Part shown: in pieces, positions 31,665 to 64,000 of the stretch
Layout of the letters: the number at the start of each line of letters is the position of its first letter
Position numbering within the stretch: position 1 is the first letter of the stretch
NCBI RefSeq assembly: GCF_002127325.2
Contig: NC_035449.2
Location: forward strand, 77,972,693 to 78,036,692
Length of the DNA stretch: 64,000 nucleotides
Direction of reading: 5' to 3'
DNA from: Helianthus annuus
Lineage: Eukaryota > Streptophyta > Magnoliopsida > Asterales > Asteraceae
Program-made: the position numbers and the translations under genes
Notes under the pieces: model-generated
Database searches by the model: none
Seen by the model: only the letters and a program-made list of their open reading frames with translations
What the model was told of the DNA's origin: nothing

Positions 31665-33358
31665 TGATGTGTGCGAGGTGTTATATATTTTTTATGTATA
31701 TTTTAAGCCCTTTTACACTTTTTAGCCAAGTTTTAAATTTATAAAACACGATATTTACTAACACTAGACACACATATGGGCAAGTGCACCCATCGTGGAC
31801 GTAGTATAGTGTTGGTAAGATACTGAGGTCGTCCAAGAACACAAGAGCTTTTAGTACCGGTTTATCCTCAACGTCTAATCAAATCAAAAAGTTAGAAAAA
31901 GGTTTTAAACTAGAAAAATAAAAACTAACTAAATGCTGAAAAATAAAAATAAAATAAAAACAGATAGACAAGATGAATCACTTGGATCCGACTCGTGTAT
32001 TAGTATAACCTTTGATTATTTTCGCACTTTTGCACTTGTTTAAGAGATTATCTTAGTTATTGTAGTAGGCCCCTCTTTTGAAGGCGACGTTACCCTCAAC
32101 CCAGTAGTTTGAGTCAGCAAGGATACAATCCTAAAGGGTTGGATTATTGGAAGATAATGAATTAAGTTATTAATGCAAATTATGGTAGGCCCCGCTTTTG
32201 GCGGTGACGTTACCCTCTGCTAAGTAGTTTGAGTCAGCAGGGATACAGTCCTAAATAGCCGGATTATAGTATTAATAGTAGTTAACTTATGAGGGGGTCA
32301 AAGAGTTTGGATCCCCGCCATCCAATACCTATGGGCATTGAAGGAGATCCTACTAAATTTGACCCAGGTCCCTTGCAGGACCTCTAAACGCTGAACAAGG
32401 GCAAGACCCTTACCAAACCGTTCCCTTAACCCCCGACCAGGTAGCCAACATACCTCCATATAGACCGTGGAGATATGAATGGTGAAAATCTTTTATTTTA
32501 TATAGACAGTAAAATAATGCCAAGACACCACGGACAAACGATAAGGAAAGATCACCTTCAACATAAGAAACTAGTTATTAAAGTCATTAATACAAAACCA
32601 AATAAAAAGTGAAAAAGATTAAAAATAAAAAGTATTATACTAAACACTTGTCTTCACCAAGTGATGTAAGAGACTTAGGCAAACATGGCCTTGATTGTCA
32701 AGAACTCTTACTATCAATCTTGGATCCCGAGACGACTCACACACTCTACGATGGACAATGGATGATGGTGGTGGATGATGGTGTTATGGTGGTGGTGGGT
32801 GGTGGATGAAGTGTGAGAGAGGTGGTGTGCCAAGGGATGAGTTGGAATGAAACCAAGCACTCCTATTTATAGGCTGAACAGAAGGCTGGGCACGGCCCCG
32901 TGTCCGCTGGACACGCCCCCGTGCCCGTCTGACACTCTCTCTCTTCATTAATTGTAATTCGCAATTACAATTAATGCGCCTGCTGTACTTTCGCCACGCC
33001 CCCGTGCTCACTGGACACGGCCCCGTGGTGGGCAATAGAAGCTTCTACAGGTTTGTCTTTTCTGCTGCTTCTTGGGCATGGCCCCGTGCTGGCTGAGCAC
33101 GGGGCGTGTTCAGTCTTCTGTTTTCTCTTCTTTACTTGGGAGGATGCCGTTGAGGGTTCGGGCAATCTACTTTTGTTCCTTTTCTTGTATTTATGCTAGA
33201 ATTAGCTGTCTTTTTGCTTCTTTTGTGTATTTGAGCTCATTTCATCCTGAAAATACAAAAGGAAGACAAAAACACTCTTTTTCCAACATTAGTACTTAAA
33301 AAGGGTTTGTTTTATGCCTCATTTGATGTAATTTATATGTTGCATTTTACACACATCA
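31665..33358 (-). repeat. Element A 3' LTR
   Basis: 1694 bp. It contains the TATA box of the family (read on minus near 32871), three pairs of CACGG-CCGTG palindromes (32891, 32995, 33077) and a hairpin of the ATTAATTGTAATT type at about 32946-32976. It is read 3'-to-5' on the plus strand. Confidence 0.9.
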
Positions 33359-35070
33359 AAAACCCCCACACTTGAACTTTTGCTTGTCCTCAAGCAAAAC
33401 TCTTTAAATGTGGCTTACACTCCCAAATGGAATGGGTAGAAGAGAAGGTTTTTGGCTTGTCATAGAGTGTCGGGAATCCAAGATCTTTTTGGGTTTTATT
33501 TTTATTTATTTACAATACTATTCGTTATGATTTATTTAGAACGTTTCATAAGATAAATTACTTATTTTGGCATAACATGCCTTTTTAAAATTTCATTTAT
33601 ATACAAGTTCACATACCTCACGGGAGAAATCACTCAACACTTGGCCGAAGGTGTATTTTTTTTTAGTGAATCACTCGAGAGCGGCATGGAACTTATTCCT
33701 ACCATAAGCTTGCCAAGCAATCAATCCTCCTCCTTTTTAACTTTATACCTTTGTAAATATCAAGAGGACTTTTTGGGCGAAGGGTTAGGCTTGGGCTAAA
33801 GGTGGGTGGTTGGGTTAGTGGTTAGTAAAAAGGGCGAAAAGCGTAAAAGCGTCGGTTTTCATAAAACACTTTGTTCTTAGTGATTTTTTTTAAAGGAAAG
33901 ATCACACAAAAGAACGAGCTTGCGAAAAACCGAGCTTGTTACTAAAATAAAGGGTGAAAAATAAAAAGGGTTTTTGGTGGGTGAAAAAGGTTTAGGGTAA
34001 AGAAACGAAAGGTTTAGGCTCAAAGGGGTTAACTAGGGGGATTTTGGGTAGGTGGTAAAAAAAATGAAAAATAATGGTGTGGAAAGAAAAATGGTTAGTC
34101 CTAATGCCTCCATCATTTACTTACTTAGTTTTAAGTTGGTAAGGACCGGGAATGAATCATCGTGGCAAGTTCTAGAGTTGTAAGAACCAAGCGGCTATTC
34201 ACACAAGAAACGAAAAATGAGCATTTAGTCTAAGGATGTAAATTTGTATGCTCAATTCAAAACTCACTTTTGTGGGAATGGGTTTTTAATGTGATCAAGT
34301 ATATATAATCAAATTTTTAACTAGACTTGTTATGCCATTTCATAATTTTCTTATGTTGGTTCTTGTTATCACGATGCTCTCGGTTGTAAAATTTGTAAAA
34401 ATATAACCTTATTAATATTAGGATTCCTAACTTAAACTTTAGACAAGTAAAAAAAAAAATGAAAAATTTTGAAAAAATTTGGGGTGTTTAGTGGTTCCAA
34501 TAGAGTTTTGTGTAAGGCTTGTTGTTCGGACTTGCAAAATTTCGAGGTGTTAGCTCCCCCCCACACTTAAATTACACATTGTCCTCAATGTGTCCCAAAA
34601 ATAAATTTTTAGGTTGATTGGATGTGTAATATGGTGTTAAAAAGCAAAGATTTATGTTACTGGCAGTCTGGACACGGCCCCGTGGGGACCGGACACGGCC
34701 CCGTGTTCAGGTGCCAGTAACAGAATTTAAAGAAATGAGACAGAAGCCTGGACACGGGGGCGTGTCTGGTGAACACGGCCCGTGTCCAGTTACCTGAACT
34801 GGGCGTTTTTCTGCAGGTGGTTCAGCACGGGGCCGTGTTGGTTGGGCACGGCCCGTGTTGAGCCTTCTGTAATGGAGATTTGTGTCGGGTTGCCTCGTTC
34901 TTGTGCATGGGGCCATTTTTCTCGTTCCCTTTTTCATCCATTACCACCACGAGTGTGTTTTATTCCTGCAAATTAAAATTAAAAGATTAAACTAAACTAA
35001 GGATAGTTCCGCGGAATGCCTCCGTGGTGCGCCACGTTTATAAGGGTCCTTGGCTAGACCCAATGTGAGG
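33359..35070 (-). other. Element A 3' non-coding region with purine tract
   Basis: Next to the LTR the minus strand reads AGTGTGGGGGTTTT, a fitting polypurine tract. The region holds a second set of three palindrome pairs (34673, 34753, 34826). No open frame of the pol type is found. The homologous region in element C (43100-47760) is opened by a solo LTR. Confidence 0.75.
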
Positions 35071-36166
35071 TTATATATTTTCTGAGTGGGATGCTTGGTG
35101 TCCCATGTTGCACCGTCGGAGAGCAGCATCCAAACTCGAATCAATAACCTTCATGTAGTTGACCGGGTCGTCGTCCTCTATTCTTTTCCCAACTCCGAAT
35201 TTTACTTCATCATCCCCATACCTCAAGGTGAGTGTTCCGTCATTCATATCTACCACCGCTTGTGCGGTGGCAAGAAATAGTTTCCCTAGTATGAGGGGGA
35301 CCTCGGTGTCTTCCTCCATATCGAGTATGACAAAGTCGGCTGGGTAGACGAATTTGCTTACCTTTACCAAGACATTTTCAATGACACCTTGCGGGAATTT
35401 GACGGATCGATCAGCAAGTTGTATGCTCATTTTTGTAGGACTCGTTGTTCCTAGGCCGAGTCTTTTAAACATTGATGAGGGCATGAGGTTAATGCTAGCC
35501 CCAAGGTCGGCTAGTGCATTACGAACGGGGGACTCCCCGATTGAGCAGGGAATCGTGAAGCTTCCGGGATCGATTTTCTTTTGGGGAAGTTTATTGAGTA
35601 CGAGGGCAGAGCATTCTTCGCCTAAGTTAACTAATTGCAAAGTTTCAATTTTCTTTTTATGAGTGAGGAAGTCCCTCATGAACTTAGAGTATTTGGGCAT
35701 TTGGGTTAGGACATCAATAAAAGGAATATTGACATGCAATTGTTTTAATAGACTTTCGAACTTTGCGAATTGCTCATTGGTCTTTTGACGTATTAACCTA
35801 CCGGGGTATGGGACTCGAGGAGCCTTGGTAGGCTCTGGTGACGGAGGGGAGTTCTTCTCCTGCAGAGGCGGGGGTACCGTTTCTTCTGTTGGTGGTGGCG
35901 CTTCTGCGGGCCCCACGGTGCGGTTTCGTAGCGTGATGAGATGAACTTGCGCTTTTGGGTTTGTTTCGGTATTGCTAGGTAATGCACCTTGTGGTCTCTC
36001 GGCAAAATTTTGAGCTATTTGATTCAATTGTTTTTCTATGTTTTGAATACTAGCTTGTTGATTTCTAAAATTTGATTCTAATTGTAGAAATCTTTCCGAG
36101 TTTTTCTTTTCAGTGTCGGAGATAAGGCGAGATATGGTATCTTCAAGCCTTTCTCGTCCACTTCAA
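35071..36166 (-). pseudogene. Element A protease region
   Basis: The open frame 35071-36027 gives about 319 residues. A Pro/Glu-rich linker (residues 38-75) is followed by YPGRLIRQKTNEQFAKF and by an aspartic protease-type domain with the active-site run ADLGASINLMP (Asp174 to Ser178), ADRSVK and the later LILGKLFL. This is the retropepsin-like part of a gypsy polyprotein. It should be fused to Gag, but a 1-base length difference in the duplicated linker puts the two in different frames. The reverse transcriptase that normally follows is missing: the frame stops at 35071-35073 and non-coding sequence begins. Confidence 0.8.
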
Positions 36167-37761
36167 TAAATGGAATATTAACATGCAATTGTTTTAGTAA
36201 ATTTTTGAATTTTGCGAATTGCTCATTGGTCTTTTGACGAATTAACCGACCGGGGTATGGGACCGGAGGAGTTTTAGTAGGCTCTTGAATTGGTGGAGAA
36301 GCCTTTTCTTGCTGAGCCGTGGATTGGCTTCTTTCAGTTGGCGTTGGTGGAGCCTCTTCGGAACCCACGGTACGGTTTCTCAATGCTATGAGATGTACTT
36401 GTGCCTTTGGATTGGTTTCAGTATTACTTGGTAACGCGCTTTGTGGTCTCTCGGAGAAATTTTGAGCTATTTGATTTAATTGTTTTTTCAGTGTTTTGTA
36501 TACTAGCTTGTTGATTTCTAAAATTTGATTCCAATTGTTGAAATCGATCCGAGTTTTTCTTTTCGGTGTCGGAGATGAGGCGAGATACAGTATCTTCAAG
36601 CCTTTCTCTTCCACCTTGTTGTTGAGAGAAATTTTGTGACTCGTTTCTTGGTTGTTGAAAGTTTGTTCGTTGGTTTAGATTTTGTTGGTTACTACTATTG
36701 TCGGGTTCTCTCCAACCAAGGTTAGGGTGGTTACGCCGTCCTTGGTTGTAGGTACCCGTTGGAGGACCCGACGGCCTAGGTCTATTATCAATGTATCTTA
36801 CCGATTCTTGTTGATCGTCCGTTTCTTTCATACAACTCCAATTTTCATGTGGCCCACCACACCCTTCACAAGCCATAACCGAGACTGTTTTTGTCATTTC
36901 TAATTTTTTTATTTTTGAAGAAAGGGCCTCGATTTGGGCTTGTAAAGAAGTGCTTTCATCAACCTTATGGGCGCCCGGGGCAATAGACTTATTGCCTCGG
37001 GGGGTGTGCCATTGAAAATTGGTTTGAGCAATTTCCTCAATTTGGTTATATATTTCATGCGGGCGGCGATTACCTAAAAGTCCCCCGGAGCTAGAATCAA
37101 GTGTCTGCCTTGTGTGTGGCAACAGTCCATTATAGAAAGTGGATACTTGTTGCCATATCGCAAGGCCATGATGTGGACACTTGCGTAATAGTTCCTTGAA
37201 CCTTTCCCAAGTTTCATATAAGGATTCCCCGTCCTCTTGTGAATATGTATTAATTTCAGTCATTAATTTAGCCGTTTTAGCGGGAGGGAAATACTTATAT
37301 AGAAATTTTTGGGCTAGTTCATCTCAGGTGTTTACCGATCCAGCTGGGAGGGCGTTAAGCCAAGCTTTCGCTCGGTCTTTTAGTGAGAAAGGAAACATTC
37401 GGAGGCGGATGGCGTCATTTGATGCTCCATTGATCCGAAAGGTATCACATATTTCTAAGAAATTAGTAATATGTAGATGGGGATTCTCGTCCGCAAGCCC
37501 ATGAAAGGTTGCGGAGTTTTGGAGCATTTGTATCAAATGCGGCCGAAGTTCGAAGTTATTAACTTCAACATTCGGAGCATTGATAGCGGCGCCTAGGTTA
37601 CCTACGGTGGGTCGTAGATAATCCATGAGGGTACGTTGGTCCGCCATTGGAGGTGGATCACCCGAAACTTTCTCTTGGTTTTTAGCTTTTAATCTTTTTC
37701 TGAGAAAGCGTTCGGGTTCTTCTAGAGGTTCTTTTATGTCGTTATTAGAACTGGAGCTCAT
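36167..37761 (-). pseudogene. Element A Gag, with nonsense mutation and internal duplication
   Basis: Gag starts at the ATG 37759-37761 (MSSSSNNDIKEP). The first part contains the capsid-like run PHLHITNFLEICDTF and DRAKAWLNALP. A TGA at 37324-37326 interrupts the frame where a Trp codon is expected. The frame then continues in the same phase to about 36424 with YETWERFKELLRKCPHHGL and a zinc knuckle-like CEGCGGPHENWSC (C-x2-C-x3-H-x4-C). The linker that follows is tandemly duplicated with a 453-bp period (about 35700-36160 and 36160-36610), with a frameshift between the copies. Gag coats the RNA in the virus-like particle. This copy could only work through readthrough or be supplied from elsewhere. 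Confidence 0.8.
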
Positions 37762-38137
37762 ACACTAGGTAGGATTGGCATCTGGTTCCAAGTCCTGCAA
37801 TAAAAATAGAAAAGAATGCTGGTCAGAAGGTTCACCACGGCCCCGTGTTTAGCGAACACGGCCCGTGGTCGGAGTTACAGTGATTGTTTTCCAGATCCCA
37901 GTTACTGGAAAGTTGGACACGACCCCGTGTTGCACCAACACGGCCCCGTGGTTAGCCTTCTGTAACTTGGAAAACTAAAAACTGCCAGTAACGATGCTGG
38001 GCACGGCCCGTGTCCGACCAGGCACGGCCCGTGCTGAGCTCTGCAGAAGCTGAAAAACTAAGAAAATCCTAAAAATTTAAAAGAAAAATAAAAATATGAT
38101 TAGGCCGTTGATTCCTAACTTTCTTAAAATCCTTGTG

Positions 38138-38161: not shown

Positions 38162-39803
38162 TGATGTGTGCGAGGTGTTATATATTTTTGATGTATATTT
38201 TAAGCCCTTTTACACTTTTTAGCCAAGTTTTAAATTTATAAAACACGATATTTACTAACACTAGACACACATATGGGCAAGTGCACCCATCGTGGACGTA
38301 GTATAGTGTTGGTAAGATACCGAGGTCGTCCAAGGACACAAGAGCTTTTAGTATCGGTTTATCCTTAACGTCTAATCAAATCAAAAAGTTAGAAAAAGGT
38401 TTTAAACTAGAAAAATAAAAACTAACTAAATGCTGAAAAATAAAAATAAAATAAAAACAGATAGACAAGATGAATCACATGGATCCGACTCGTTTATTAG
38501 TATAACCTTTGATTATTTTCGCACTTTTGCACTTGTTTAAGAGATTATCTTAGTTATTGTAGTAGGCCCCTCTTTTGAAGGCGACGTTACCCTCAACCTA
38601 GTAGTTTGAGTCAGCAAGGATACAATCCTAAAGGGTTGGATTATTGGAAGATAATGAATTAAGTTATTAATGCAAATTATGGTAGGCCCCGCTTTTGGCG
38701 GTGACGTTACCCTCGGATAAGTAGTCTGAGTCAGCAGGGATACAGTCCTAAATAGCCGGATTATTGTATTAATAGTAGTTAACTTATGAGGGGGTCAAAG
38801 AGTTTGGATCCCCGCCATCCAATACCTATGGGCATTGAAGGAGATCCTACTAAATTTGACCCAGGTCCCTTGCAGGACCTCTAAACGCTGAACAAGGGCA
38901 AGACCCTTACCAAACCGTTCCCTTAACCCCCGACCAGGTAGCCAACATACCTCCATATAGACCGTGGAGATATGAATGGTGAAAATCTTTTATTTTATAT
39001 AGCAGTAAAATAATGCCAAGACACCACGGACAAACGATAAGGAAAGATCACCTTCAACATAAGAAACTAGTTATTAAAGTCATTAATACAAAACCAAATA
39101 AAAAGTGCAAAAGATTAAAAATAAAAAGTATTATACTAAACACTTGTCTTCACCAAGTGATGTAAGAGACTTAGGCGAACATGGCCTTGATTGTCAAGAA
39201 CTCTTACTATCAATCTTGGATCCCGAGACGACTCACACACTCTACGATGGACAATGGATGATGGTGGTGGATGATGGTGTTATGGTGGTGGATGAAGTGT
39301 GAGAGAGGTAGTGTGCCAAGGGATGAGTTGGAATGAAACCAAGCACTCCTATTTATAGGCTGAACAGAAGGCTGGGCACGGCCCCGTGTCTGCTGGACAC
39401 GCCCCCGTGCCCGTCTAACACTCTCTCTCTTCATTAATTGTAATCGCAATTACAATTAATGCGCCTGCTGTACTTTCGCCACGCCCCCGTGCTCACTGGA
39501 CACGGCCACGTGGTGGGCAATAGAAGCTTCTACAGGTTTGTCCTTTCTGCTGCTTCTTGGGCACGGCCCCGTGCTGGCTGAGCACGGGGCGTGTTCAGTC
39601 TTCTGTTTTCTCTTCTTTGCTTGGGAGGATGCCGTTGAGGGTTCGGGCAATCTACTTTTTGCTTCTTTTGTGTATTTGAGCTCATTTCATCCTGAAAATA
39701 CAAAAGGAAGACAAAAACACTCTTTTTCCAACATTAGTACTTAAAAAGGGTTTGTTTTATGACTCATTTGATGTAATTTATATGTTGCATTTTACACACA
39801 TCA
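38162..39803 (-). repeat. Element A 5' LTR
   Basis: 1642 bp, with the same ends and the same three palindrome pairs (39377, 39480, 39562) as the other LTR. It lacks a segment of about 50 bp that the other LTR has at about 33163-33215. Confidence 0.9.
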
Positions 39804-41403: not shown

Positions 41404-43099
41404 TGATGCGTGTGTAGTGTAATATGTTTTAGGTATATATTTTAAGCTCTTTTTACACTTTCTTTAGCCAAGTTTTAAATTTATAAAACACGATATTTAC
41501 TAACACTAAACACACATATGGGCAAGTGCACCCATCGTGAACGTAGTATAGTGTTGGTAAGATACCGAGGTCGTCCAAGGACACAAGAGCTTTTAGTACC
41601 GGTTTATCCTCAACGTCTAATCAAATCAAAATGTTAGAAAAAGATTTTAAGCTAAGAAAATAAAACTAACTAAATGCTGAAAAATAAAAATAAAATAAAA
41701 ACAGATAGACAAGATGAATCACTTGGATCCGACTCGTGTGTTAGTCTAACCTTTGATTATTTTCGCACTTTTGCACTTGTTTAAGAGATTATCTTAGTTA
41801 TTGTAGTAGGCCCCTCTTTTGAAGGTGACGTTACCCTCAACCTAGTAGTTTGAGTCAGCAAGGATACAATCCTAAAGGGTCGGATTATTGAAAGATAATT
41901 AATTAAGTTATTAATGCAAATTATGGTAGGCCCCTCTTTTGGAGGTGAAGTTACCCTCGACTAAGTAGTCTGAGTCAGCAGGGATACAGTCCTAAATAGC
42001 CGGGTTATAGTAGTAATAGTAGTTTAACTTATGAGGGGATCAAAGAGTTTGGACCCCCGCCATCCAATACCTTTGGGTATTGAAGGAGGTCCTACTAAAT
42101 TTGACCCAGGTCCCTTGCAGGACCTCTAAACGCTGAACAAGGGCAAGACTCTTACCAAACCATTCCCTTAACCCCCGACCAGGTAGCCAACATACCTCCA
42201 TATAGACCGTGGAGATATGAATGGTGAAAATCTTTTATTTTATATAGACAGTAAAATAATGCCAAGACACCACGGACAAACGATAAGGAAGAATCACCTT
42301 CAACATAAGAAACTAGTTATTAAAGTCATTAATACAAAACCAATTAAGAAGTGCAAAAGATTAAAAATAAAAAGTATTATACTAAACACTTGTATTCACC
42401 AAGTGATGTAAGAGACTTAGGCAAACATGGCCTTGATTGTCAAGAACTCTTACGATCAATCTTGGATCCCGAGACGACTCACACACTCTATGATGGACAA
42501 TGGATGATGGTGGTGGATGATGGTGTTGTGATGGTGGTGGGTGGTGGATGAAGTGTGAGAGAGGTGGTGTGCCAAAGGATGATTTGCAATGGCTCCAAGC
42601 ACTCCTATTTATAGGCTGAACAGAAGCCTGGGCACGGCCCCGTGTCCGCTGGGCACGGCCCCGTGCCCGTCTGACACTCTCTCTCTTTATTAATTGTAAT
42701 TCGCAATTACAATAAATGCGCCTGCAGCACTCTGACCACGCCCCCGTGTCCGCTGGGCACGGCCCCGTGGTGGGCAATAGAAGCTTCTATTGGTTTGTCT
42801 TTTCTGCTGCTTCTTGGGCACGGCCCCGTGCTCGCTGAGCACGGGGCGTGTTCAGTCTTCTGTCTTCTCTGTTTTGCTTGGGAGGATGCTGTCGAGGGGT
42901 CGGGCAATCCACTTTTGTTCCTTTTCTTGTATTTATGTTAGATTTTGCTGTCTTTTTGCTTCTTTGTTAATTTGAGCTCATTTAATCCAGAAAATACAAA
43001 AGGAAGACAAAAGCACACTTTTTCTAACATTAGTACTAAAAAAGGGTTAGTTTTATGCCACAATTGATATAATTTATATGTTGCATTTTGCGCGTATCA
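41404..43099 (-). repeat. Element C 3' LTR
   Basis: 1696 bp. It carries three palindrome pairs (42633, 42737, 42819) and the family hairpin between the first two. The 5 bases before it are ATGAT, which should recur at the far end of element C. Confidence 0.85.
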
Positions 43100-49822: not shown

Positions 49823-50278
49823 CTAAATACCAAAACAGGTAAAAAATCGACAAACCATTGCAGAATGTTTTTCGTCCTCATCCACAACAGTACTCTCATC
49901 AACGCCCACAATTCCATCCAACACCGAAAGCAATTTCATACCATTCAGTTTTAACAAATACTGAAACCGATTTTTATCAAACGCTTTGGTATGTAAATCA
50001 GCTTTTTGTTCGTCAGTGTGGATTTTGTCAATTCGTATCAACTTTTTCTCGAAACAATCGCGAATAAAGTGATGTCGAATTTCTATGTGTTTAGTTTTAG
50101 CGTGATGTACTGGATTCTTTGTTATATTAATAGCGGCCTCATTATCAACAAAAAGAGGTGTGTTAAGAAACTGCAAACCGTAGTCGCGCATCTGTTGCTG
50201 TATCCACAGGATCTGAGAGCAGCAACTGCTAGCAGAAACATACTCCGCTTCACATGTAGACAACGCCACAGACGTTTA
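49823..50278 (-). pseudogene. Copia pol: RNase H part
   Basis: The frame contains VALSTCEAEYVSASSCCSQ, LFVDNEAAINI and HHFIRDCFEKKLI, the order found at the end of copia polyproteins, and ends at 49823. It is separated from the reverse transcriptase by a TAA at 50276-50278 that stands where a Gln codon is expected (after WQCKK), in the same frame. Confidence 0.88.
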
Positions 50279-52102: not shown

Positions 52103-53286
52103 CATTGGATTTGCATAACCAACAAATATTCCCTCAATGCACTTCGGACCAAACTTTCCGTGAGGCTCTATAACTGTACAGGGTGACCCGAACGGTTCTA
52201 GATACTTCAAATTCGGTTTGCGATTATTAATTAGCTCAAAGCACGTTTTGTTGAACTTCTTGACAGTGAGAACCCTGTTGAGCGTATAGCATGCGGCGGA
52301 AACAGCTTCAGCCCAAAAATTAATTGGTAACTTTGAATCTGCGAGCATAGTTCTAGCCGTCTCGATTAGTGTCCGATTTTTATGTTCTGCAACTCCATTC
52401 TGCTGCGGAGTGTACGGAGCACTAAACTCATGAAATATACCTCTTTCATCACAAAATTCTTCCATCTTACTGTTCTTGAATTCAGTACCATTATCACTTC
52501 GAATCCTTTTAATACGCCTTTGGTACAGATTCTCAATTCTCTTGAACAACGCCATCAAACTGTCAAATGTGTCGTCTTTCGTCTTCAAGAAAGATACCCA
52601 CGAAAATCTGGAATAATCATCAGTTACAACCAAACAGTAGTAATCTCCTGTAATACTTTTGACATTCACAGGACCAAACAAATCCATGTGAAGTCTTTCC
52701 AGAGGTCTCGAAACTGAATTGACTTGCTTTGTAGGGTGCGACTTTTTCTTCTGCTTGCCTTTAACACAGCTAATGCACTCCCCTTCCAGATGAAAACCTT
52801 TGACATGAACTCCTGTAACCAAATCGTTGTGCACCAAGTGATTCATCTTCCTTAGGTGAATATGCCCCATCTTTCGGTGCCACAATCTCGATTCTTTCTC
52901 AGTTGCTCTGGACACAAAACAATGAGCCTGACCCGTGGTTGTAGTAGCTACACTCATGTCCAACACGTACAGATCATTAACCCTCGGTGCCCTCATGATA
53001 ATCCATTCCTCAGGGATTACAAATCCTGGTTTCAATATCAAACATTCTTTGTCAGTGAAGTGAGTAGTATACATCCTGTCACAGATCTGGGAGATACTCA
53101 GCAGATTATTCTCCAGCTCAGCAATGTAGTTAACTCTCTCAAACGTCACAATCCCGTTGGATAACGTTCCTTCACCTACAATCCTTCCTCCTTGATTACC
53201 CGCAAAACCTACGTAACCACTATTGATATTTCTTACATCATACAGCAACCCAGTCTTCCCTGTCATATGTCGTGAAGCGCCACTAT
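52103..53286 (-). pseudogene. Copia pol: end of protease and integrase
   Basis: It starts at the insertion point with the SGASRHMTG remnant of the protease active site, then continues with HRKMGHIHLRKMNHLV and CISCVKGK (zinc-binding HHCC), LHMDLFGPV, the second Asp in RSDNGTEF and the Glu in PQQNGVAEHKNRT (D-D-E core), then GIFVGYANP. Family and purine tract point to a Sirevirus-like copia. The upstream Gag and 5' LTR were displaced to the right by the gypsy LTR at 53287 and are outside the window. Confidence 0.9.
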
Positions 53287-55976
53287 TGTGACAACCCGAG
53301 TTTTCCAGGTCTCTCCTCACAACTAGTTTTCTAAATTCGTTGTGTTCTTTTGTGTGCACTGGTTATCTATCTTTAAATTATTAAGCAATGTTAATTGGTT
53401 GAATGTTAGTTATTGTAACCGGCCCAATTCCCTTGTTCTTGTTGCAAGCTACATCTCGGCCCACTCATCAAACTGTTCGGCCCAAACCCCCCTTATGTAT
53501 ACATAATCATGTGTGGGTGATATAACTTGTTCATAAACATTGCAAACCCTAGAAACTTATTTGGTGAACGACAACAAGGAGAGCATCTCGCTGACCCCCT
53601 TTCTTGCATGATTAATTCTCTAGATCGCTTTAATTCGTTGTCGGGTTAGTACTTATTCAACTATCTTATATGTATGCATGTACCAGCGTATTGTTGTTGT
53701 GAGAATACGATTGAATAGATGGCCGATAGGGTGATGTTCGTAGTAACTCTATTCAGTCGATTCTGTCCATGTGGATGATATTGATTTCATATTGATGCTA
53801 GGACTCGAAATTACATGATTTTGTTATGATTGTAACGTGCAATTAAATGATGTTTTGATATGTTATTTTTGGGATCATTAATCAGTATGTTAACAGGATG
53901 TATGGCTATATTATGAACATGATCTTGCCTATGATACAATCGATGAGTCATGATTATGGTGCATGGGTGATGTTTTCAAATTGTAGTCAAATAGATAAGG
54001 ACAATTTCTTAAATGGGCGGCTACTGTGTTTGGAAATTTGCATGTGATTTAGATTAGATATAATATGCAAGAAGATGGTCCAATGATAGTGAAACTTGCA
54101 ACCAATATATAAATTGGTCAAATAGCAATATGAAAAGGATCTGCACTTGTCTGCCATTGGTGTTGAAATTGACAAAAGTAATGATGATGAGCATATGATT
54201 TTGAACTGGTTTGTATAATAGGGAATCCGTTTAATCTGGTGTATGATCGGTTGTATTTTTTTTATGTTTGATGTTCCGAACTTTTAATAAATGGCACAAG
54301 CTCCGAATTTTGTTAAGATATATATATGGGGTCCAACTTTATATTGTAGTGTTGACCGAATATTATATGATGAAATGGATCCGAGTTTTTAATTAATATT
54401 ACATGAGGTCCGAATTATATATATGTTGCACAAGGAGTCCGAGTTTTTTTTGGCACATGATGATGTCCGACTTTTAATTAAATACATTGTCCGAATTTCT
54501 TTGCAGGTGTACTTAGGGTCCGAGTTTTGTAACAAGCTTAGGGTCCGAGTTTTGTAACAAGCATGTAGGGCCCGAGTTTCTTAAAGGAGTGCACCTGTCC
54601 GAGTTTGTTACTGTGATATGTCTGAACCTTGTAAGACACAAAAGGTCCGAATTTTATGAATATAAAAAGGTCTGAACTTTATATGATGTTTCAAGGTCCG
54701 AATTTGCTTATCATGCCTAGTCCGACCTTTTTACTTGTGATATAGTGTCCGAACTTTCATGCCTTAATGCCTTGTCTGAGTGTTATGCTTTGATGGTGGT
54801 CAGAATTACATATGTTATGTATAATCAGAACCTTACAAAGTAATGTATGAAACGAGTTACTTGTAAACACCAGTGTACAGAGCCTACTGTATGTTCTGTA
54901 CATTACAACATGCTACTGTATGTTACTGTATATGACTGTGTGATACTGTAGGTATGAACAATCTGTGTCACATTATTCTGTACACGAATATCACACGAAT
55001 CACAACTGTTTAGACATCAAGGACTTGTAAACCCTAATTGAATGTAAACACTTATATTAAGTTTATGTGCAATGTACCTTAGGTCGTGTGTAACGGGCCT
55101 AACTATTTGTCAATACTAGAAGCAATAACATACCGAGCAAACCAAGGTGAGTTCACACTCTTACTAAGGCATGGGATTCCCGGGGATAGGGAATGGGTTG
55201 AATGATGGAATTGAACAATTACTCGTACATACACGATTACTAGACTATCTACCATGGTCCTCAGGTTAAGCAGGACACTTACGTAAAACCTACGTAAACA
55301 AGTACATATTACTGTCTTCCGGAGTTAGGAAGGACACTTACGTAAAACCTACGTAAACTCACACATGCTACTGTCTTCCGGAGTCAGGAAGGACACTTAC
55401 GTAAAACCTACGTAAACCCCACGCGTACCACTGTCCTCGGGTAAAGAAGGACACTTACGTAAAACCTACGTAAAGCTTGTACGTACTACTGTTTTCGGTT
55501 GTGAAGAACACTTATGGTTACGAATAGTCTAGTGTATATGCAACATGGGAAGCCCCCACCAATAGAACATACTATCGGCCCAGTAGAGCCACACGTTACA
55601 AACGAACTTACTAGTATGCACTTACTTTCTATGAACTCGCTCAACTAGTTGTTGACTCTCTGTTACATGCCTTGCAGGTCGTTAGGTATTCATGGAGCTT
55701 GCATGGGGAGGCGCGGTCGTTGTGGACAAGGATCGTGATTGCTTGATTAAACATTATGACTTTACATACTTTATTTACATTGGGCTTTTACTCAATTGCT
55801 TCCGCTAAACTTAGTTATTATACATATGTTTTGGAACACCTTTCATATGGATTGGTTTGGTTTAATTACAATTACTTTTACAATTTACATTGTTCTATAT
55901 GATTGGTGGCTTGATCCTGGTCATGTCACGCCTCCCAAGCGGTGATACTCCGCGTGTGGATTTTGGGGGTGTGACA
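53287..55976 (+). repeat. 5' LTR of a gypsy element with tRNA-Met primer site
   Basis: It starts TGTGACAACCCGAG and ends GGGGGTGTGACA, 2690 bp. It inserted into the copia protease. It is distantly related to the LTRs at 1-1837 and 43583-47124 (same ends; shared module around GAACTCGCTCAACT). It contains about 20 dispersed TCCGA(A/G)TTT motifs (54260-54790) and a 59-bp tandem repeat (55273 to about 55510). Confidence 0.85.
55273..55510 (+). repeat. 59-bp tandem repeat with TTACGTAA palindromes
   Basis: Four units begin at 55273, 55332, 55391 and 55449. Each holds CACTTACGTAAAACCTACG, with two ACGT cores 12 bp apart, followed by a variable part ending CTGTCTTCCGGAG or similar. ACGT is the core bound by plant bZIP factors; a regulatory role is an inference. 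Confidence 0.85.
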
Positions 55977-56262: not shown

Positions 56263-56644
56263 TGATGTGTGTAAAATGAAACATATAAATTACATCAAAT
56301 GAGGCATAAAACAAACCCTTTTTAAGTACTAATGTTGGAAAAAGAGTGTTTTTATCTTCCTTTTGTATTTTCAGGATGAAATGAGCTCAAATACACAAAA
56401 GAAGCAAAAAGACAGCTAATTCTAGCATAAATACAAAAAAAGGAACAAAAGTAGATTGCCCGAACCCTCAACGGCATCCTCCCAAGTAAAGAAGAGAAAA
56501 CAGAAGACTGAACACGCCCCGTGCTCAGCCAGCACGGGGCCGTGCCCAAGAAGCAGCAGAAAAGACAAACCTGTAGAAGCTTCTATTGCCCACCACGGGG
56601 CCGTGTCCAGTGAGCACGGGGGCGTGGCGAAAGTACAGCAGGCG

Positions 56645-56675
56645 CATTAATTGTAATTGCGAATTACAATTAATG
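56645..56675. promoter_or_regulatory. Perfect U3 hairpin of the A/B/C family
   Basis: ATTAATTGTAATT and its reverse complement flank a short centre. The same inverted repeat occurs in all four LTRs of the family, between two palindrome pairs. It lies about 75-105 bp upstream of the TATA box. Confidence 0.7.
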
Positions 56676-56749
56676 AAGAGAGAGAGTGTCAGACGGGCAC
56701 GGGGGCGTGTCCAGCGGACACGGGGCCGTGCCCAGCCTTCTGTTCAGCC

Positions 56750-56757
56750 TATAAATA
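56750..56757 (+). promoter_or_regulatory. TATA box of element B LTR
   Basis: TATAAATA preceded by AGCC. The same box is present at the matching place in the LTRs of elements A and C. Transcription would start about 30 bp downstream, which places the three palindrome pairs in U3, about 50, 155 and 235 bp upstream of the box. Confidence 0.7.
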
Positions 56758-57904
56758 GGAGTGCTTGGTTTCGTTCCAACTCATCCCTTGGCACACCACC
56801 TCTCTCACACTTCATCCACCACCCACCACCACCATAACACCATCATCCATTGTCCATCGTAGAGTGTGTGAGTCGTCTCGGGATTCAAGATTGATAGTAA
56901 GAGTTCTTGACAATCAAGGCCATGTTTGCCTAAGTCTCTTACATCACTTGGTGAAGACAAGTGTTTAGTATAATACTTTTTATTTTTAATCTTTTGCACT
57001 TTTTATTTGGTTTTGTATTAATGACTTTAATAACTAGTTTCTTATGTTGAAGGTGATCTTTCCTTATCGTTTGTCCGTGGTGTCTTGGCATTATTTTACT
57101 GTCTATATAAAATAAAAGATTTTCACCATTCATATCTCCACGGTCTATATGGAGGTATGTTGGCTACCCGGTCGGGGGTTAAGGGAACGGTTTGGTAAGG
57201 GTCTTGCCCTTGTTCAGCGTTTAGAGGTCCTGCAAGGGACCTGGGTCAAATTTAGTAGGATCTCCTTCAATGCCCATAGGTATTGGATGGCGGGGATCCA
57301 AACTCTTTGACCCCCCCATAAGTTAACTACTATTAATACTATAATCCGGCTATTTTGGACTGTATCCCTGCTGACTCAGACTACTTAGCCGAGGGTAACG
57401 TCACCGCTAAAAGCGGGGCCTACCATAATTTGCATTAATAACTTAATTCATTATCTTCCAATAATCCAACCCTTTAGGATTGTATCCTTGCTGACTCAAA
57501 CTACTGGGTTGAGGGTAACGTCGCCTTCAAAAGAGGGGCCTACTACAATAACTAAGATAATCTCTTAAACAAGTGCAAAAGTGCGAAAATAATCAAAGGT
57601 TATACTAATACACGAGTCGGATCCAAGTGATTCATCTTGTCTATCTGTTTTTATTTTATTTTTATTTTTCAGCATTTAGTTAGTTTTTATTTTTCTAGTT
57701 TAAAACCTTTTTCTAAATTTTTGATTTGATTAGACGTCGGTATCTTACCAACACTATACTACGTCCACGATGGGTGCACTTGCCCATATGTGTGTCTAGT
57801 GTTAGTAAATATCGTGTTTTATAAATTTAAAACTTGGCTAAAAAGTGTAAAAGGGCTTAAAATATACATCAAAAATATATAACACCTCGCACACATCAAG
57901 TTTT

Positions 57905-57922
57905 TGGCGCCGTTGCCGGGGA
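57905..57922 (+). other. Element B primer-binding site (tRNA-Asp)
   Basis: TGGCGCCGTTGCCGGGGA matches the complement of the 3' end of plant tRNA-Asp exactly, six bases after the LTR end. Confidence 0.9.
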
Positions 57923-58038
57923 CACAAGGATTTTAAGAAAGCTTAAAATCAACGGCCTAATCAGTTTTTCAAAACCTTTTCAAAACGCGCGCATATTTTT
58001 CTGCATTTTAGATTAGTTTGCATTCACAGTAGCCTGAA

Positions 58039-58227
58039 CACGGGGCCGTGCTCACTGAACACGCCCCCGTGCTGCATATTTTTAGTTAGATACCCAGATA
58101 CAGAGTCTGAACACGGGGTCGTGCTCACTGAACACGCCCCCGTGTCCAACGTGACCAATAACTTTAATTAAAACGCCCAGATACAAACCCTGAACACGGG
58201 GCCGTGTTCACCCAACACGGGGCCGTG
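58039..58227. repeat. Leader cluster of three paired palindromes, element B
   Basis: Pairs of CACGG(N2)CCGTG-type 12-mers start at 58039/58060, 58112/58133 and 58195/58216. Each pair is spaced by exactly 21 bp and the pairs recur every 73-83 bp. The cluster lies between the primer site and the first start codon. Confidence 0.9.
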
Positions 58228-58300
58228 TCCAGCTTCTGTTTCCGTCTTTGTTTTTGTTTTCTGGTCCCGAGACTCAGTTGTGGTCTGCTGAGTGATTCTT

Positions 58301-59749
58301 ATGGATCAATACTCAGGAGGTTACAACTACACCTATGATGAGGATGATTATAGGGGTAATTATTGCACTAATTGTCGTAACACACGCTCGGTTCAATATA
58401 GTAACTCATATCAACCATCCAATTCATACAACCATTATGAGGAGCCCAGGTACGAGCCATCAACTTCATACACATCCTATGAAGACGAAAGGTATGAACC
58501 TCCTCCCTCATACTCATATTTTGATGAACCAAGGTATGAGCCTTCATACTCATACTTTGAAGACTCAAGATATGAGCCACCACCTTCATACTCTTATTAT
58601 GAGGAACCATGGCGTGAACAACCCACCTCATATGAGTACTATGAAGAACAAAGTTTCGACCCTTATCCATCATATACTCACAATGAAGAACAGTGGTGTG
58701 AACCATCTACTTCATATGAGTACTATGAGGAACCAAGGATCGAACAACCAGATTCAAGCTTTGAGGATCCAAATTCTTTTTCTCTCACCGAAGTAACCAA
58801 TAGGATATTAGAACACATTAAAACTATCGAACGTTACATGAAAGAATCTCGCGCAAGGGAAGAGGAGTCCCGCGCAAGAGAAGAATTAAATTGTAATAAT
58901 AACGTAGAGATAGTTGAAAATGTAAAAATGGAAGAACAAGAAAGTGAAAAACTGACACATGAGTTAAACAACGAAAAAGGTGAGTCCGATAATGTTAAAT
59001 TACAAGAAGAGTCTAATTTTGAAGAAATTAATCTCTTGTCACCTACTTTCGAAAATCATTGTTTAGTAACCCCTCATGCCAAGTTTTTAAAAGAGTTAAA
59101 CACTAGTGCTAAAATCAAAGAAATAGTAAGTGTTAAGTTAACTAATGATCAAACCTCGCTAATAAAAGAAGATCCTTTTGAAATTAACATTACACCGGTT
59201 CCATGTTTCTTTCAAAATTCATTTATTAGTAATATCACCATTGATAAAGATCTTTGTGTTAACATAATGCCTAACTACATTTTTGAAAAATTAAGTATTA
59301 GTGACTTTACTCCACTTCAAATACCCATTTTTCTATCCGATCGAAAAGTGATAAAATCAATCGGTGTAGTTGAAGATGTTTTGGTTCAAACAAATCAAAT
59401 GGTAATCCCAACCGACTTTGTCATCCTCGATGACGCTCCTTTAGTCTTGGGAAAACCTTTTGCACAAACTCATAAAGCTTTGAAAAACCGGAAATTCAAC
59501 AATCTACCTCTTCAGTTAGGGGCATTCAAAAGGAGCATAGATCTTGAGCGTTCAATGAAATATCCTTTTGGTAATAATGACCCCCTAATTGAAGATGAAG
59601 CTGAACCACCCGATACAACTAAAGAAGAAGACCACTTTGTTGAAGAAGAAATCGCCATAGAACAAACCTTTAATGTTCTTGATCTAGATGAGCCACAAAA
59701 TAAGGTGTCCTCTAAAGACCCACCCATTGAGCTCAAAAGAACTTCCTAA
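58301..59749 (+). CDS. Tyr/Glu/Pro-rich repeat protein with protease-like region (element B)
   Basis: The first ATG in frame is 58301, giving 482 residues. Residues about 33-147 are imperfect repeats of the type SYSYYEEPRYEPPP, rich in Tyr, Glu and Pro and probably disordered. Residues about 160-245 are charged and helical, with RAREEESRAREE, likely a coiled coil. Residues about 295-390 align with the protease of element A (for example VNIMPNYIFEKL, LSDRKV, VIPTDFVILD, LVLGKPF), but the active-site D-L-G-A run is replaced by D-K-D-L, so catalysis is doubtful. No capsid motif or CCHC knuckle is seen; only C22 and C25 form a C-x2-C pair. It takes the place of Gag. A one-base difference near 59737 ends the frame shortly before the reverse transcriptase frame resumes. 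Confidence 0.75.
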   Translation: MDQYSGGYNYTYDEDDYRGNYCTNCRNTRSVQYSNSYQPSNSYNHYEEPRYEPSTSYTSYEDERYEPPPSYSYFDEPRYEPSYSYFEDSRYEPPPSYSYYEEPWREQPTSYEYYEEQSFDPYPSYTHNEEQWCEPSTSYEYYEEPRIEQPDSSFEDPNSFSLTEVTNRILEHIKTIERYMKESRAREEESRAREELNCNNNVEIVENVKMEEQESEKLTHELNNEKGESDNVKLQEESNFEEINLLSPTFENHCLVTPHAKFLKELNTSAKIKEIVSVKLTNDQTSLIKEDPFEINITPVPCFFQNSFISNITIDKDLCVNIMPNYIFEKLSISDFTPLQIPIFLSDRKVIKSIGVVEDVLVQTNQMVIPTDFVILDDAPLVLGKPFAQTHKALKNRKFNNLPLQLGAFKRSIDLERSMKYPFGNNDPLIEDEAEPPDTTKEEDHFVEEEIAIEQTFNVLDLDEPQNKVSSKDPPIELKRTS

Positions 59750-62551
59750 AGGTTTGGAATATGCTTTTCTAGACAAAGATGGTAGTTTACCTGTAATTAT
59801 TTCTTCTAAATTAAGTAACATAGAATAAGAGAAATTAGTTAATCTTCTTAAAAAACACAAAAACGCGATCGCTTGGAAGCTTGTGGATATTAAAGGAATA
59901 AGTCCTTCCATGTGCACGCACAAAATTTTAATGAATGATGACTACAAAACAGTAATTCAACCACAACGAAGAGTGAATCCCAATGTACAAGAAGTGGTTA
60001 AAAATGAAGTCATCAAGCTACTTGACGCCGGACTAATCTACCCTATCTCCGATAGTCCGTGGGTAAGTCCCGTCCAAGTAGTCCCAAAGAAAGGAGGTAT
60101 GACGGTAATAACTAATGAGAAAAATGAATTAATACCAACAAGAACCGTCACAGGATGGAGAGTTTGTATAGACTATAGACGATTAAATGAAGCAACGAGG
60201 AAAGACCACTTTCCTTTACCCTTCATTGATCAAATGTTAGAACGACTATCCGGTCATAAATTTTATTGTTTCTTAGATGGTTTTTCAGGTTACTTTCAAA
60301 TACCGATAGCACCAGAAGACCAAGAGAAAACAACTTTCACGCGCCCCTACGGAACTTTCGCATATCGACGCATGCCATTCGGTCTATGTAATGCACCTGC
60401 AACATTCCAACGTTGTATGGTAGCCATTTTCCATGATATGATCGAAAAGACAATGGAAGTCTTCATGGACGACTTTTCTATCTTTGGAGACTCATATGAC
60501 CAATGTCTCGATAATCTTGAACGAATGCTATCCCGATGTGAGGAAACTAACCTCGCCCTTAACTGGGAAAAATGCCATTTCATGGTAACAGAGGGAATAG
60601 TACTCGGTCACAAAATCTCAAGCGAAGGAATGGAAGTCGATCGAGCAAAAATAGAAACTATTTCTCGATTACCACCACCATCCTCCGTAAGAGCAATCAG
60701 AAGTTTCTTAGGGCATGCCGGATTTTATAGAAGATTTATCAAGGACTTTTCAAAAATTTCAAGACCTCTAACAAAATTACTTGAAAAAGATGCACCTTTC
60801 ATCTTTGACAAGGAATGCAATCAAGCATTTCTAACCCTCAAGGAAATGCTAGTCAATGCACCTATCATGATAGCGCCCGATTGGAAATTTCCTTTCGAAA
60901 TCATGTGCGATGCAAGTGACTTTGCCGTTGGAGCAGTCTTGGGACAAAGAAAAGAAAAGCACTTCCACCCAATTTATTATGCTAGTAAAACGCTTAATGA
61001 TGCACAAGAAAATTATACAACTACAGAAAAAGAATTACTAGCATTGGTGTTTGCTTTTGATAAATTCCGTCCTTATCTTGTTCTTTCTAAAACTGTAGTC
61101 TATACAGACCATGCAGCTATCAGGTACCTCTTCAAGAAACAAGACGCAAAACCCCGTTTGATCAGATGGATTCTACTCCTCCAAGAATTCGACATCGAAA
61201 TCAAGGACAAAAGAGGAGCAGAAAACACTGCTGCAGATCATCTCTCACGCCTAGAAGACCCAGCTTTGGAAGCGACCAGGGACGAGCAAATCAACGAAAA
61301 ATTTCCCACAGAGTCCTTGGAGATGATGGAGAGTAGACAAGAACCATGGTATGCCGACTACGCTAATTATCTAGCTAGCGGTATAGTCACCAAAGGATGG
61401 CCGCATCACCAAAGAAAGAAATTCTTTGCTGATGTAAAGCATTACTTCTGGGAAGACCCTTATCTTTTCAAAATGTGTGCCGACCAGCTCATCCGAAGGT
61501 GTGTCCATGGTAATGAAGCACGAAGAATTCTCCGTCACTGTCATGAAGGTCCATACGGAGGACATCATGGTGCCGCGAGTACCGCACGAAAGGTATTTGA
61601 TTCAGGATTTTATTGGCCAACCATTTACAAGGATGCACAAAACCTTGTAAAGACATGTGATGCTTGCCAAAGATCAGGTAATATTTCTTCCAAAAACGAA
61701 ATGCCTCAAAATGGCATTCTCGTTTATGAAATCTTTGATGTGTGGGGACTCGATTTCATGGGACCTTTCCCACCATCAAAAGGAAACAAATATATACTTG
61801 TGGCAGTCGATTATTTGTCTAAATGGGCGGAGGCCGAAGCTCTTCCAACAAATGATGGAAGAGTAGTGGTAAAATTTCTAAAAAAATTATTTTCTCGTTT
61901 CGGAACACCAAAAGCTTTGATAAGTGATAGAGGTACTCATTTTTGCAATCATCAACTAGAAAAAATATTAACAAGGTATGGGGTCTATCACCGGGTCTCA
62001 ACAGCGTATCACCCTCAAACAAATGGGCAAGCCGAAGTGACTAATCGAGGTTTAAAACGAATACTTGAAAAAACCGTAGGACTAAATAAAAAGGATTGGG
62101 CTGACAAATTAGACGATGCCTTATGGGCCTTTCGAACTGCTTATAAAACCACTATAGGCACAACCCCATATAAGCTCGTCTATGGAAAAAGTTGCCACTT
62201 GCCGGTAGAAATAGCTCACAGAGCCTACTGGGCAATAAAAAATGTAAACTTAGACTTAGAAACTGCAGGTAAAAATCGATTTTGTCAAATGAATGAATTA
62301 GACGAATTATGGAACTATGCATATTCTAACTCCGAAATTTATAAAGAAAGAATGAAAAATTTGCATGATAAATATATTAAGTCTAATGAATTTCGGGTAG
62401 GATATCAAGTTCTATTGTTTAATTCACGACTTCGATTATTTCCTGGAAAACTAAAATCTAGGTGGTCAGGTCCTTTTTCCGTCAGCCATGTTTTTCCTCA
62501 CGGTACAATAGAAATTAAAGCTCGAAATGGGATACCATTTAAAGTCAATGG
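59750..62551 (+). pseudogene. Element B pol: reverse transcriptase, RNase H, integrase
   Basis: After the frameshift near 59737 the polyprotein continues with one TAA at 59827-59829; the long open part starts at 59883. Numbering from there: FLDGFSGY (130-137) and FMDD (194-197) in the reverse transcriptase; DAS at 343, ELLAL, YTDH (407-410) and ADHLSRL for RNase H; HCHE...HHGA and CDAC (552-595) as the zinc-binding part of integrase; Asp624, Asp682 and Glu718 as the D-D-35-E core. All catalytic residues are present. The frame loses its proper C terminus because a new LTR starts at 62552; the last 14 codons read to 62594 belong to that LTR. With one frameshift, one stop and the insertion, this copy cannot make a full polyprotein. 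Confidence 0.92.
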
Positions 62552-64000
62552 TGTAACACCCCGAAAAATAAAATTTTATATGAGATTTATATAAAGTATA
62601 AATAAATGAGTATTTACCAATTAGAAATTTTAACCTAGTTGGTTAATAGTTTAGAAATAACCTATAGTAGGGTTAAAAGCCACTAAATTAAATGTTGACC
62701 AAAATGAAGGGACCTTGGTTGTCAAAATTTGAAACTTGTGTTACTAAGTTAGTAAAACAAAACCAAACACCCCATTTTGAGGTGTTGGTCGACCAGGAGC
62801 AAGGAAAGGGGGCGATCCCCACTCTCAAACCCTAAATTCTGCTTAAAACTCTCAACTGAAGGAGCAAATCTGGTCCAAACGAAAATCCGAGCCTAGAATC
62901 GTGATCCTCATCGCAAGAGGATTATAAGGTATGTAAAATTTAGTGAAAACTCTTATCTTGGAATTTTCATGAATTGGGAAAAATCTGAAATTCTAGTTGC
63001 ATGTTTGTCTTATGATGATTTAGGAATAACTATGGTGTTTAGATACAAACCCTAGACAAATAGAAGTTTAAATCATAAGAAAATTTGGTGAATTCATGAA
63101 TAGCATTGTAGGTGGTTAATGGGTTATGTGTAGATTGATGAACACTAGGAAATAGATTGTGAATCTAGTGTAATTTGACCATTTGGAAGCGATTCCAGAA
63201 AGACTTAAGGTTATCAATCATGTAAAAGGGTTGAATGATGTAAATTTAGGGCTAAATAACAATCTAGAGAATTGATGTTTAATCATGTAAAAATCTGCCC
63301 ATGAAGTGCTTGTTGAAATGCCTCTATGAGGGCTTAAAACTGAAATTCCAAGTTTAAACGCATAATCACGATGTTTAGTGTATTATGCGAATTATGATTT
63401 GAAAAGAGAGTTCTAAACATATGATAAATGAACTCAATAGGAACGGGCGCAGGAGCGTCAAGCGGACAAGCGGGTGGCGAACCACGTCAAAAAGGGCTAC
63501 TTTGAAGGTATGTAACTTGACTCGTTACATTAAGTAGTTTGGATGATTATTAAATGCATAATTGGATTTTTAGAATAAGTGTCGTTTTGTATTTAAGCGG
63601 TGATGTCGCTATATTGAATAATGGATCAAATTGGTTGGAACTCGTTGGTAGTCGTCACAATGGTGGGTTCCTTAGACGAGCCAAACGGGTCGAATAATCA
63701 AGTACGGCATGGATAATGCTTCGGGTTGAGATGGATTGAATCTTTGATGATGGATAATATATAACATATTAAAATTGTGAGATTTAACTAAATGGCATCC
63801 TAGAAAACTGAAATCCGAGAGTTGGGTTTAGTGTAATGACCAAACCAAACAAAAACATAAATTTCCAGGTACTACCGTAAGTTACGGTGGTACCGTAACT
63901 TACGGTAGAGGCCAGGGGTTTACGGTGGTTCACTACTGTTTTACGGTGGACCAAAAGACTTCCAGGACTCACCGTAACTTACGGTGACACCGTAAGTTAC
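62552..64000 (+). mobile_element. LTR of a further element inserted into element B (runs off window)
   Basis: It starts TGTAACACCCCGAAAAAT, a common start of gypsy LTRs, directly inside the coding sequence of element B after AATGG. No open frame is supported in 1.45 kb. The last 130 bp carry ACCGTAAGTTACGGT-type palindromes. Neither the LTR end nor a primer site is reached. Confidence 0.65.

Follow-up and report, generated by a model that had tools for sequence, protein, structure and literature searches.

Introduction

The U3 region of the HTLV-1 LTR carries three 21-bp repeats, the Tax/CREB response elements, each of which is bound by a dimer; these units are CRE-like, and the CRE core is TGACGTCA. 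The sunflower elements described here resemble HTLV-1 in having repeated 21-bp units in the LTR U3 upstream of a TATA box. They differ in that the sunflower units are abutting pairs of palindromes, which also occupy leader, intergenic and 3' regions, and the CRE core TGACGTCA is absent from the sunflower site consensus. Similar CACGG...CGTG-rich repeats may also occur in retrotransposon DNA of other plant families.

A second comparison is offered by the VANDAL elements of Arabidopsis, in which the VANC motifs are reported to have expanded by tandem duplication (PMC5735166). As in VANDAL, short sequence-specific motifs form arrays outside the coding parts of a single transposon family; in contrast, VANDAL elements are DNA transposons and the VANC21 motif, YAGTATTAY, is not palindromic.

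The elements themselves are closest to Athila, with which they share the gypsy order of pol domains, an ATHILA ORF (PF03078) after pol and a primer binding site of the tRNA-Asp type. We know of no described Athila array of palindrome pairs with a 9-bp gap, and a literature search by sequence and for sunflower, Athila and plant palindromes gave no such array among the matches listed, those for the sequence itself dealing with animal or viral subjects. Families with members of unequal coding content have been described: Cereba and Quinta of wheat have LTR and PBS in common, pol being present in one and gag alone in the other (PMC11302176), and sunflower itself is known to have TR-GAG elements (PMC9784723). 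The sunflower family differs from Cereba/Quinta in that its pol-bearing element B has no recognisable gag, and the passages describing these families make no mention of palindrome arrays.

Results

Palindrome pairs in the elements of the window

The window, which is the whole 64-kb stretch of sunflower DNA that was analysed, contains 19 exact copies of the site CACGGNNCCGTG. An earlier note on this DNA had listed 21 pairs of this palindrome or its close variants, and all 21 were present where it had placed them. Because the LTR copies of elements A, B and C are 93-98% identical, the 21 pairs are not independent and represent 12 distinct positions. The features of element B are as follows; palindromes and pairs are given without strand.

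56263..57898, + strand: element B LTR (TGATGTGTG...CACACATCA, 1,636 bp), from terminal inverted 9-mers and 97-98% identity to the A LTRs
56513..56544: U3 pair 1, an 11-bp site, 9 bp and a 12-bp site (starts 56513/56533, ends 56523/56544)
56594..56626: U3 pair 2 (site search)
56645..56675: AT-rich 31-bp palindrome between U3 pairs 2 and 3 (14-bp arms, 3-bp loop)
56698..56730: U3 pair 3, its end 19 bp upstream of the TATA box
56750..56757, + strand: TATAAATA box (TATA box)
57905..57922, + strand: primer binding site TGGCGCCGTTGCCGGGGA, downstream of the LTR
58039..58071: leader pair 1 (site search)
58112..58144: leader pair 2 (site search)
58195..58227: leader pair 3 (site search)
58301..59749, + strand: ORF1, Tyr-rich repeats and then a part 30-33% identical to the A protease ORF
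59883..62594, + strand: pol, with RT, RNase H and integrase in Ty3/gypsy order

The primer binding site of element B, TGGCGCCGTTGCCGGGGA, is presumably of the tRNA-Asp type, and the three leader pairs lie between it and ORF1. ORF1 gave no Pfam match at E 0.01, and no gag was recognisable in it. Arm length in the AT-rich palindrome of the U3 was 13-14 bp in 12 of 16 LTR copies. Elements A and C contribute the remaining pairs.

31665..33358, - strand: element A 3' LTR (LTR comparison, termini)
32891..32923: A 3' LTR pair adjoining the TATA box (site search)
32995..33027: A 3' LTR pair (site search)
33077..33108: A 3' LTR pair, one site 11 bp (site search)
34673..34705: A 3' region pair (site search)
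34753..34784: A 3' region pair, one site 11 bp (site search)
34826..34857: A 3' region pair, one site 11 bp (site search)
35071..36027, - strand: element A aspartic protease ORF (PF13650)
36424..37263, - strand: element A gag ORF (PF03732)
37836..37867: A leader pair, one site 11 bp (site search)
37918..37950: A leader pair (site search)
38002..38033: A leader pair, both sites 11 bp, gap 10 (site search)
38162..39803, - strand: element A 5' LTR (LTR comparison, termini)
39377..39409: A 5' LTR pair adjoining the TATA box (site search)
39480..39512: A 5' LTR pair (site search)
39562..39593: A 5' LTR pair, one site 11 bp (site search)
42633..42665: element C LTR pair adjoining the TATA box (site search)
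42737..42769: element C LTR pair (site search)
42819..42850: element C LTR pair, one site 11 bp (site search)

Element A has two LTRs, gag and protease and no match to the pol pieces of element B, which is the composition of a TR-GAG element. Judged by their sequence, the pair-bearing elements are Athila-type LTR retrotransposons of sunflower.

The gap within a pair is nearly invariant

The exact site CACGGNNCCGTG is present in 143,332 copies in the 3.01-Gb sunflower genome, compared with 137 for the reversed pattern. A sharp genome-wide peak in spacing had been predicted by the earlier note, and the test, which was set beforehand, bore this out: one gap length of 31 (0-30 bp), the 9-bp gap, accounted for 28,842 of the 29,229 exact pairs, or 98.7%, a figure that covers exact sites only. 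The remaining 30 gap lengths together held 387 exact pairs, by difference, and the reversed control yielded 0 pairs both at gap 9 and over all gaps. With the four core bases left free, 77,167 pairs with gap 9 were counted, against 5 in the control. Such genome counts are not independent events because copies share descent, and the 33 flank classes into which the sampled pairs fall are the better sample size.

Pairs with an 11-bp first site were used to separate the gap from the distance between starts. Gap 9, which places the starts 20 bp apart, was found in 34,172 copies (16,929 + 17,243), and gap 10, with the starts 21 bp apart, in 2,844 (1,437 + 1,407). By flank class the same comparison stands at 7 with gap 9 and 3 with gap 10, one class occurring in both, and the ratio of copies therefore partly reflects descent. 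The rigid quantity is mainly the inner gap, CGTG-N9-CACG, rather than 21 bp as such. In the window, the proposal that matching edges lie 21 bp apart is accurate for at least one edge in every pair, the other edge being at 20 bp where one site is 11 bp; likewise, a spacing unaffected by an 11-bp site was seen as an inner gap of 9 bp in 20 of the 21 pairs, the exception being the pair at 38002, which has a gap of 10 and two 11-bp sites.

In the window and 20 targeted loci combined, the gap was 9 bp in 143 of 149 pairs and 10 bp in the other 6; 29 of the 33 flank classes had only gap 9, two had both and two had only gap 10. The targeted loci were chosen for holding pairs and come without exception from the first 9 Mb of chromosome 1, a sample that is uninformative on frequency. 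Almost every exact site in this set (151 of 155) belonged to a called pair. Neighbouring pairs were separated by 36-71 bp (SD 11, n=83), and the spacers of different flank classes had a mean identity of 48% (29 representatives). With the distance from pair to pair variable and the spacers this divergent, the spacing within the pair has been kept while its sequence has not. Helical phasing between pairs was also considered and was not adopted; clustering near a 10.5-bp period was weak (P ~0.009), over 17 distinct values that are not independent.

Most sampled arrays consist of exactly two units. One locus, L030, carries a five-unit 21-bp array (chromosome 1:1537400-1537495), and a peptide read through this array matched one sunflower protein and two short contigs. 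Outside plants, 257 Gb of prokaryote genomes contained 4 stretches with the exact pair and the viral contigs contained 1, matches that we take as chance.

Each unit presents four equivalent half-sites

The consensus for each site, derived from the window and the 20 targeted loci, is TGRA-CACG-(3-4 mostly G/C)-CGTG-YYCA. The core between CACG and CGTG has 3 or 4 bases, of which G or C occupied 1,124 of 1,150 positions, and in an exact pair the core orientation of the two sites is usually identical. With its flanks each site is a 20-bp palindrome, and the unit consists of two such palindromes with 1 bp between them, which gives the 21-bp repeat.

A sequence logo was made from 146 units in 33 flank classes, the classes being weighted equally; three overlapping units of the five-unit array were omitted from it and from the covariation tests described below, which reduced 149 units to 146. 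The conservation of CACG/CGTG in this logo is partly circular, because those bases served to find the sites, while that of TGRA is not. The outward TGRA, as the most frequent base at each position, was common to all four half-sites, with frequencies of 0.48-0.85. Correlations between the half-site flanks were 0.82-0.96, compared with -0.08 to 0.76 for bases further out. Around the whole unit the outer flanks form a weaker CAG...CTG dyad (left/right correlations 0.59 and 0.76).

Among plant transcription factors, a CAMTA (CG-1) consensus of (A/C)CGTGT is reported (PMC10417383). This consensus would fit a half-site CCGTG followed by T; CCGTG is mostly conserved in the sunflower sites, and the T was present in 0.48, 0.57, 0.63 and 0.77 of the four half-sites. 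We know of no CAMTA requirement for a paired palindrome with a 9-bp gap.

The promoter-proximal pair is at a constant distance from the TATA box

In each of the 16 copies of its class that were sampled, the third U3 pair ended 19 bp upstream of TATAAATA, and CCGTG-N19-TATAAATA was found in 22,578 copies genome-wide, compared with 81 for the control. In L028, a targeted locus, a differently placed pair has a TATA word 17 bp away.

Sampled pairs lie outside recognised coding sequence and are kept whatever the element encodes

The units of the sampled sequences were positioned in the U3 and the 5' leader, in the interval ahead of the ATHILA ORF and in the 3' region. None of the 149 pairs of the window and targeted loci overlapped recognised coding sequence, defined as matches to five A/B protein pieces and one ORF, a test that rests on 10 sequences, 11 of the 21 having no recognised coding. 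After masking of the pairs, 19 of the 20 targeted loci were homologous to the LTR, leader or 3' pieces, L036 being the exception.

The coding content of these loci was variable. L035 encodes gag and protease without pol, the same coding layout as element A, and L026 matched only ORF1 and, weakly, the protease. L028 gave no match to the five A/B protein pieces; its LTRs were identical over the 1,050 bp compared, and it retains clusters of pairs in its LTR, its leader and its 3' region. The pairs are thus kept in gag-only, in pol-bearing and in non-coding members of the family, which argues that the arrays are cis-acting parts independent of coding content.

The ATHILA ORF is known from L045, a B-type copy, since the window ends before the corresponding part of element B. 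In L045 the ORF after pol contains the PF03078 ATHILA domain (E 2e-5, above the curated cut-off). One pair is situated 70 bp upstream of the ATG that opens this ORF, another lies between pol and the ORF, and three are located downstream. The longest open frame, from a TTG, runs through the pair at 70 bp; the ATG was taken as the start because the best sunflower homologues have that length. A grouping into clusters of three pairs, proposed from the window, is common but is not a rule, as demonstrated by the single pairs between pol and the ATHILA ORF in L045 and by the five-unit array of L030.

For comparison, 20 random 10-kb regions (200 kb) were assessed and contained 0 exact sites and one unpaired site with one mismatch. 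The sample is small, with only about 1.5 family LTR promoters expected in it; at ~22,600 promoters per 3 Gb, the lack of any in these regions is no surprise. Other Ty3/gypsy pol sequences (25-40% identity) were present in 8 of the 20 regions, and homology to the LTR, leader or 3' pieces in none of the 20. The random sample shows only that other gypsy elements can lack the sites. Taken together, the motif is dense in the non-coding parts of the family and rare elsewhere, as in a VANC-type array, both samples being small. By extrapolation, the remaining tens of thousands of genome-wide pairs would lie in the same Athila-type family.

Discussion

The pairs are a repeated cis-element of the family and, from their anatomy, probably DNA operators of one putative protein, of the host or of the element, which would serve mainly in activation or anti-silencing of the LTR promoter. 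Four equivalent half-sites would correspond to four copies of one DNA-binding domain, and together with the fixed geometry they suggest two contacting dimers (or a tetramer) of a single sequence-specific protein placed side by side on the unit. A centre spacing of 20-21 bp would put both dimers on one face of the helix, where they could touch across the gap. The position beside the TATA box suggests that binding there would activate transcription; the presence of units across the remaining non-coding parts is suggestive of chromatin opening or anti-silencing, and binding at these sites may counter silencing in the manner of VANC arrays. A binding array had been one of the two explanations offered in the earlier note, and it is partly supported by the 9-bp gap in 98.7% of exact pairs, by TGRA-CACG on four sides and by the constant 19 bp to the TATA box. 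The outer CAG...CTG dyad is superfluous to a model of two dimers; an operator of greater size, or a hairpin of greater length, would accommodate it.

The alternative offered with it was an RNA element, in which hairpins or pairing between RNAs would serve genomic RNA dimerisation or packaging, as in retrovirus and Ty leaders; we give this a modest chance of being correct. Three pairs do lie between the primer binding site and ORF1, the non-coding element keeps its pairs as expected of cis signals, and the outer dyad surrounds the unit. The leader and U3 fold more stably than shuffled sequences (z -5.9 and -7.0), though any palindrome folds, and the minimum free energy (MFE) folds are mixed: leader unit 2 and U3 unit 3 pair with themselves, while leader units 1 and 3 cross-pair, as do U3 units 1 and 2. 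Covariation was assessed by comparing real with swapped partners for the outer flanks, spacer ends, site flanks and whole sites. In nine such tests over the 33 classes every P exceeded 0.05, the lowest being 0.056 (outermost 3+3 bases) and the others 0.17-0.66; the compensatory pairing changes expected of a retroviral dimer or packaging hairpin were not detected in these tests, which are of limited power because R/Y alternatives mostly still pair. A hairpin of the whole unit, which the unit resembles on inspection and for which some outer flanks are complementary, such as TTACTGGCA...TGCCAGTA in the 3' region class, was also tried and was rejected as the main reading, swapped partners among the 33 classes being nearly as complementary. 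Pairs with cores in GG:CC order, which would pair perfectly as RNA, numbered only 17 against 28,842 exact pairs of all cores, and an RNA role offers no obvious reason for the fixed spacing between U3 pair and TATA box. It would appear that the identity of CACG/CGTG and the gap are constrained, rather than base pairing, and we favour a DNA-bound array of paired dimers over RNA hairpins.

The pairs could also be neutral tandem repeats, a duplication-prone 21-bp unit that hitch-hikes in a successful family and has no binding partner. The five-unit array at chromosome 1:1537400-1537495, the usual identity of core orientation in the two sites, as after direct duplication, and the multiplication of copies by descent all agree with such an origin, and the 33 flank classes may themselves derive from old duplications of one 21-bp unit. 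We nevertheless consider a purely neutral repeat quite unlikely: most sampled arrays have exactly two units, 29 of 33 classes have only gap 9 with spacers 48% identical, the same outward bases are kept at four half-sites, and units persist in the LTR, the leader and the 3' region of the non-coding L028. Were the pairs instead a target of host silencing, a repressor or chromatin factor would recognise them and they would be common because the family is common. The abundant site contains CG and CCG, and plant hosts are reported to target non-coding parts of transposons by RdDM (PMC10398659). A purely harmful site should, however, decay in successful lineages, whereas units are kept in L028, with its identical LTRs, and are placed at the promoter, and a silencing target is in our view very unlikely.

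If the pairs are operators, NAC, LBD and other plant factors with CACG- or CGG-type sites are conceivable binders, and these were considered. The ATHILA ORF protein is a candidate only because the family encodes it; an AlphaFold model of the ORF (24 sequences, query from one residue before the ATG) had a mean pLDDT of 39.8 and was unusable. There is a small chance that a pol-bearing member encodes a binder of the four-half-site operators in every non-coding interval which keeps LTRs unmethylated, acting in trans for gag-only and non-coding partners. By analogy, such a trans-acting binder, the ATHILA ORF being the first candidate, would make these elements a community with shared operators, a retroelement counterpart of VANC/VANDAL; this we offer as speculation, with the odds clearly against it. 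A sunflower Athila 'cluster 2' is reported to show a drop in LTR methylation in all contexts and the highest GC content (PMC12844716); this cluster may correspond to the pair-bearing family.

The cis-element is ordinary in kind, since promoter-linked repeats are a feature of retrotransposons, and unusual in its geometry, rigidity, copy number and spread. More than 100,000 copies of the motif are present in a crop genome (77,167 with 12-bp sites and 34,172 with an 11-bp first site), a density of one in about 27 kb. Should a host factor bind the pairs, the family would be a huge sink and a route of dispersal for the sites of that factor. If the element encodes the binder, the arrays would constitute a self-operator system of an LTR retrotransposon, of which we know no earlier example. 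Nanopore data are reported to show an unexplained loss of LTR methylation in a sunflower Athila clade (PMC12844716), and in view of this loss the motif allows a concrete comparison of pair-bearing LTRs with the methylation dips in the available maps.

Geometry of the palindrome pairs

Five consecutive palindromes in 21-bp steps were found on sunflower chromosome 1 at G000:C1:1537400-1537495 (positions 401-496 of the sampled locus L030), and the paired CACG...CGTG unit is therefore able to expand in register. In L045, a copy related to L030, two palindromes occupy the position of this run. Enclosing the unit as a whole, the outer flanks form a weaker CAG...CTG dyad, with correlations of 0.59 and 0.76 across 33 pair classes from the window and loci L026-L045.

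An AT-rich palindrome of 31 bp (window 56645-56675) is flanked by U3 pairs 2 and 3, two of the LTR pairs upstream of the TATA. Among 16 LTR copies, 12 have arms of 13-14 bp, three have 9-bp arms and one has 5-bp arms. Between 42850 and 56513 the window contains no palindrome pair. Other features of the window were as follows:

3688-4173, ORF with an EXPERA (EBP superfamily) domain, related to the next
5369-5917, ORF with an EXPERA (EBP superfamily) domain, neighbour of the preceding
50276-53359, Copia-type pol pieces with integrase and gag_pre-integrs domains, the domain evidence covering 52103-53359 only

Window self-comparison also revealed repeats, both direct and inverted, that are several hundred bp long and 84-93% identical, at 13325-15456 and 19299-24115.

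Arrangement of the elements

Four LTR promoters at G000:C1:19691420-19709774 share one orientation and are spaced 6,105-6,112 bp apart, which suggests a head-to-tail multi-LTR array. Some other neighbouring LTR promoters were spaced by about 5.3-5.7 kb or 10.2 kb.

Of the two Athila-type elements, A (window 31665-39803, minus strand) contains gag and protease and lacks pol; B (window 56263-62594, plus strand) contains pol and has no recognisable gag. B ORF1 (window 58301-59746) opens with Tyr-rich, YEEPRYEP-like repeats, generated no Pfam domain match at E 0.01, and is an unusual replacement where gag would sit. The LTRs of A and B are 97-98% identical, and the two are possibly complementary partners; this layout, with gag and protease in one element, pol in the other and near-identical LTRs, is similar to the Cereba/Quinta gag-donor arrangement.
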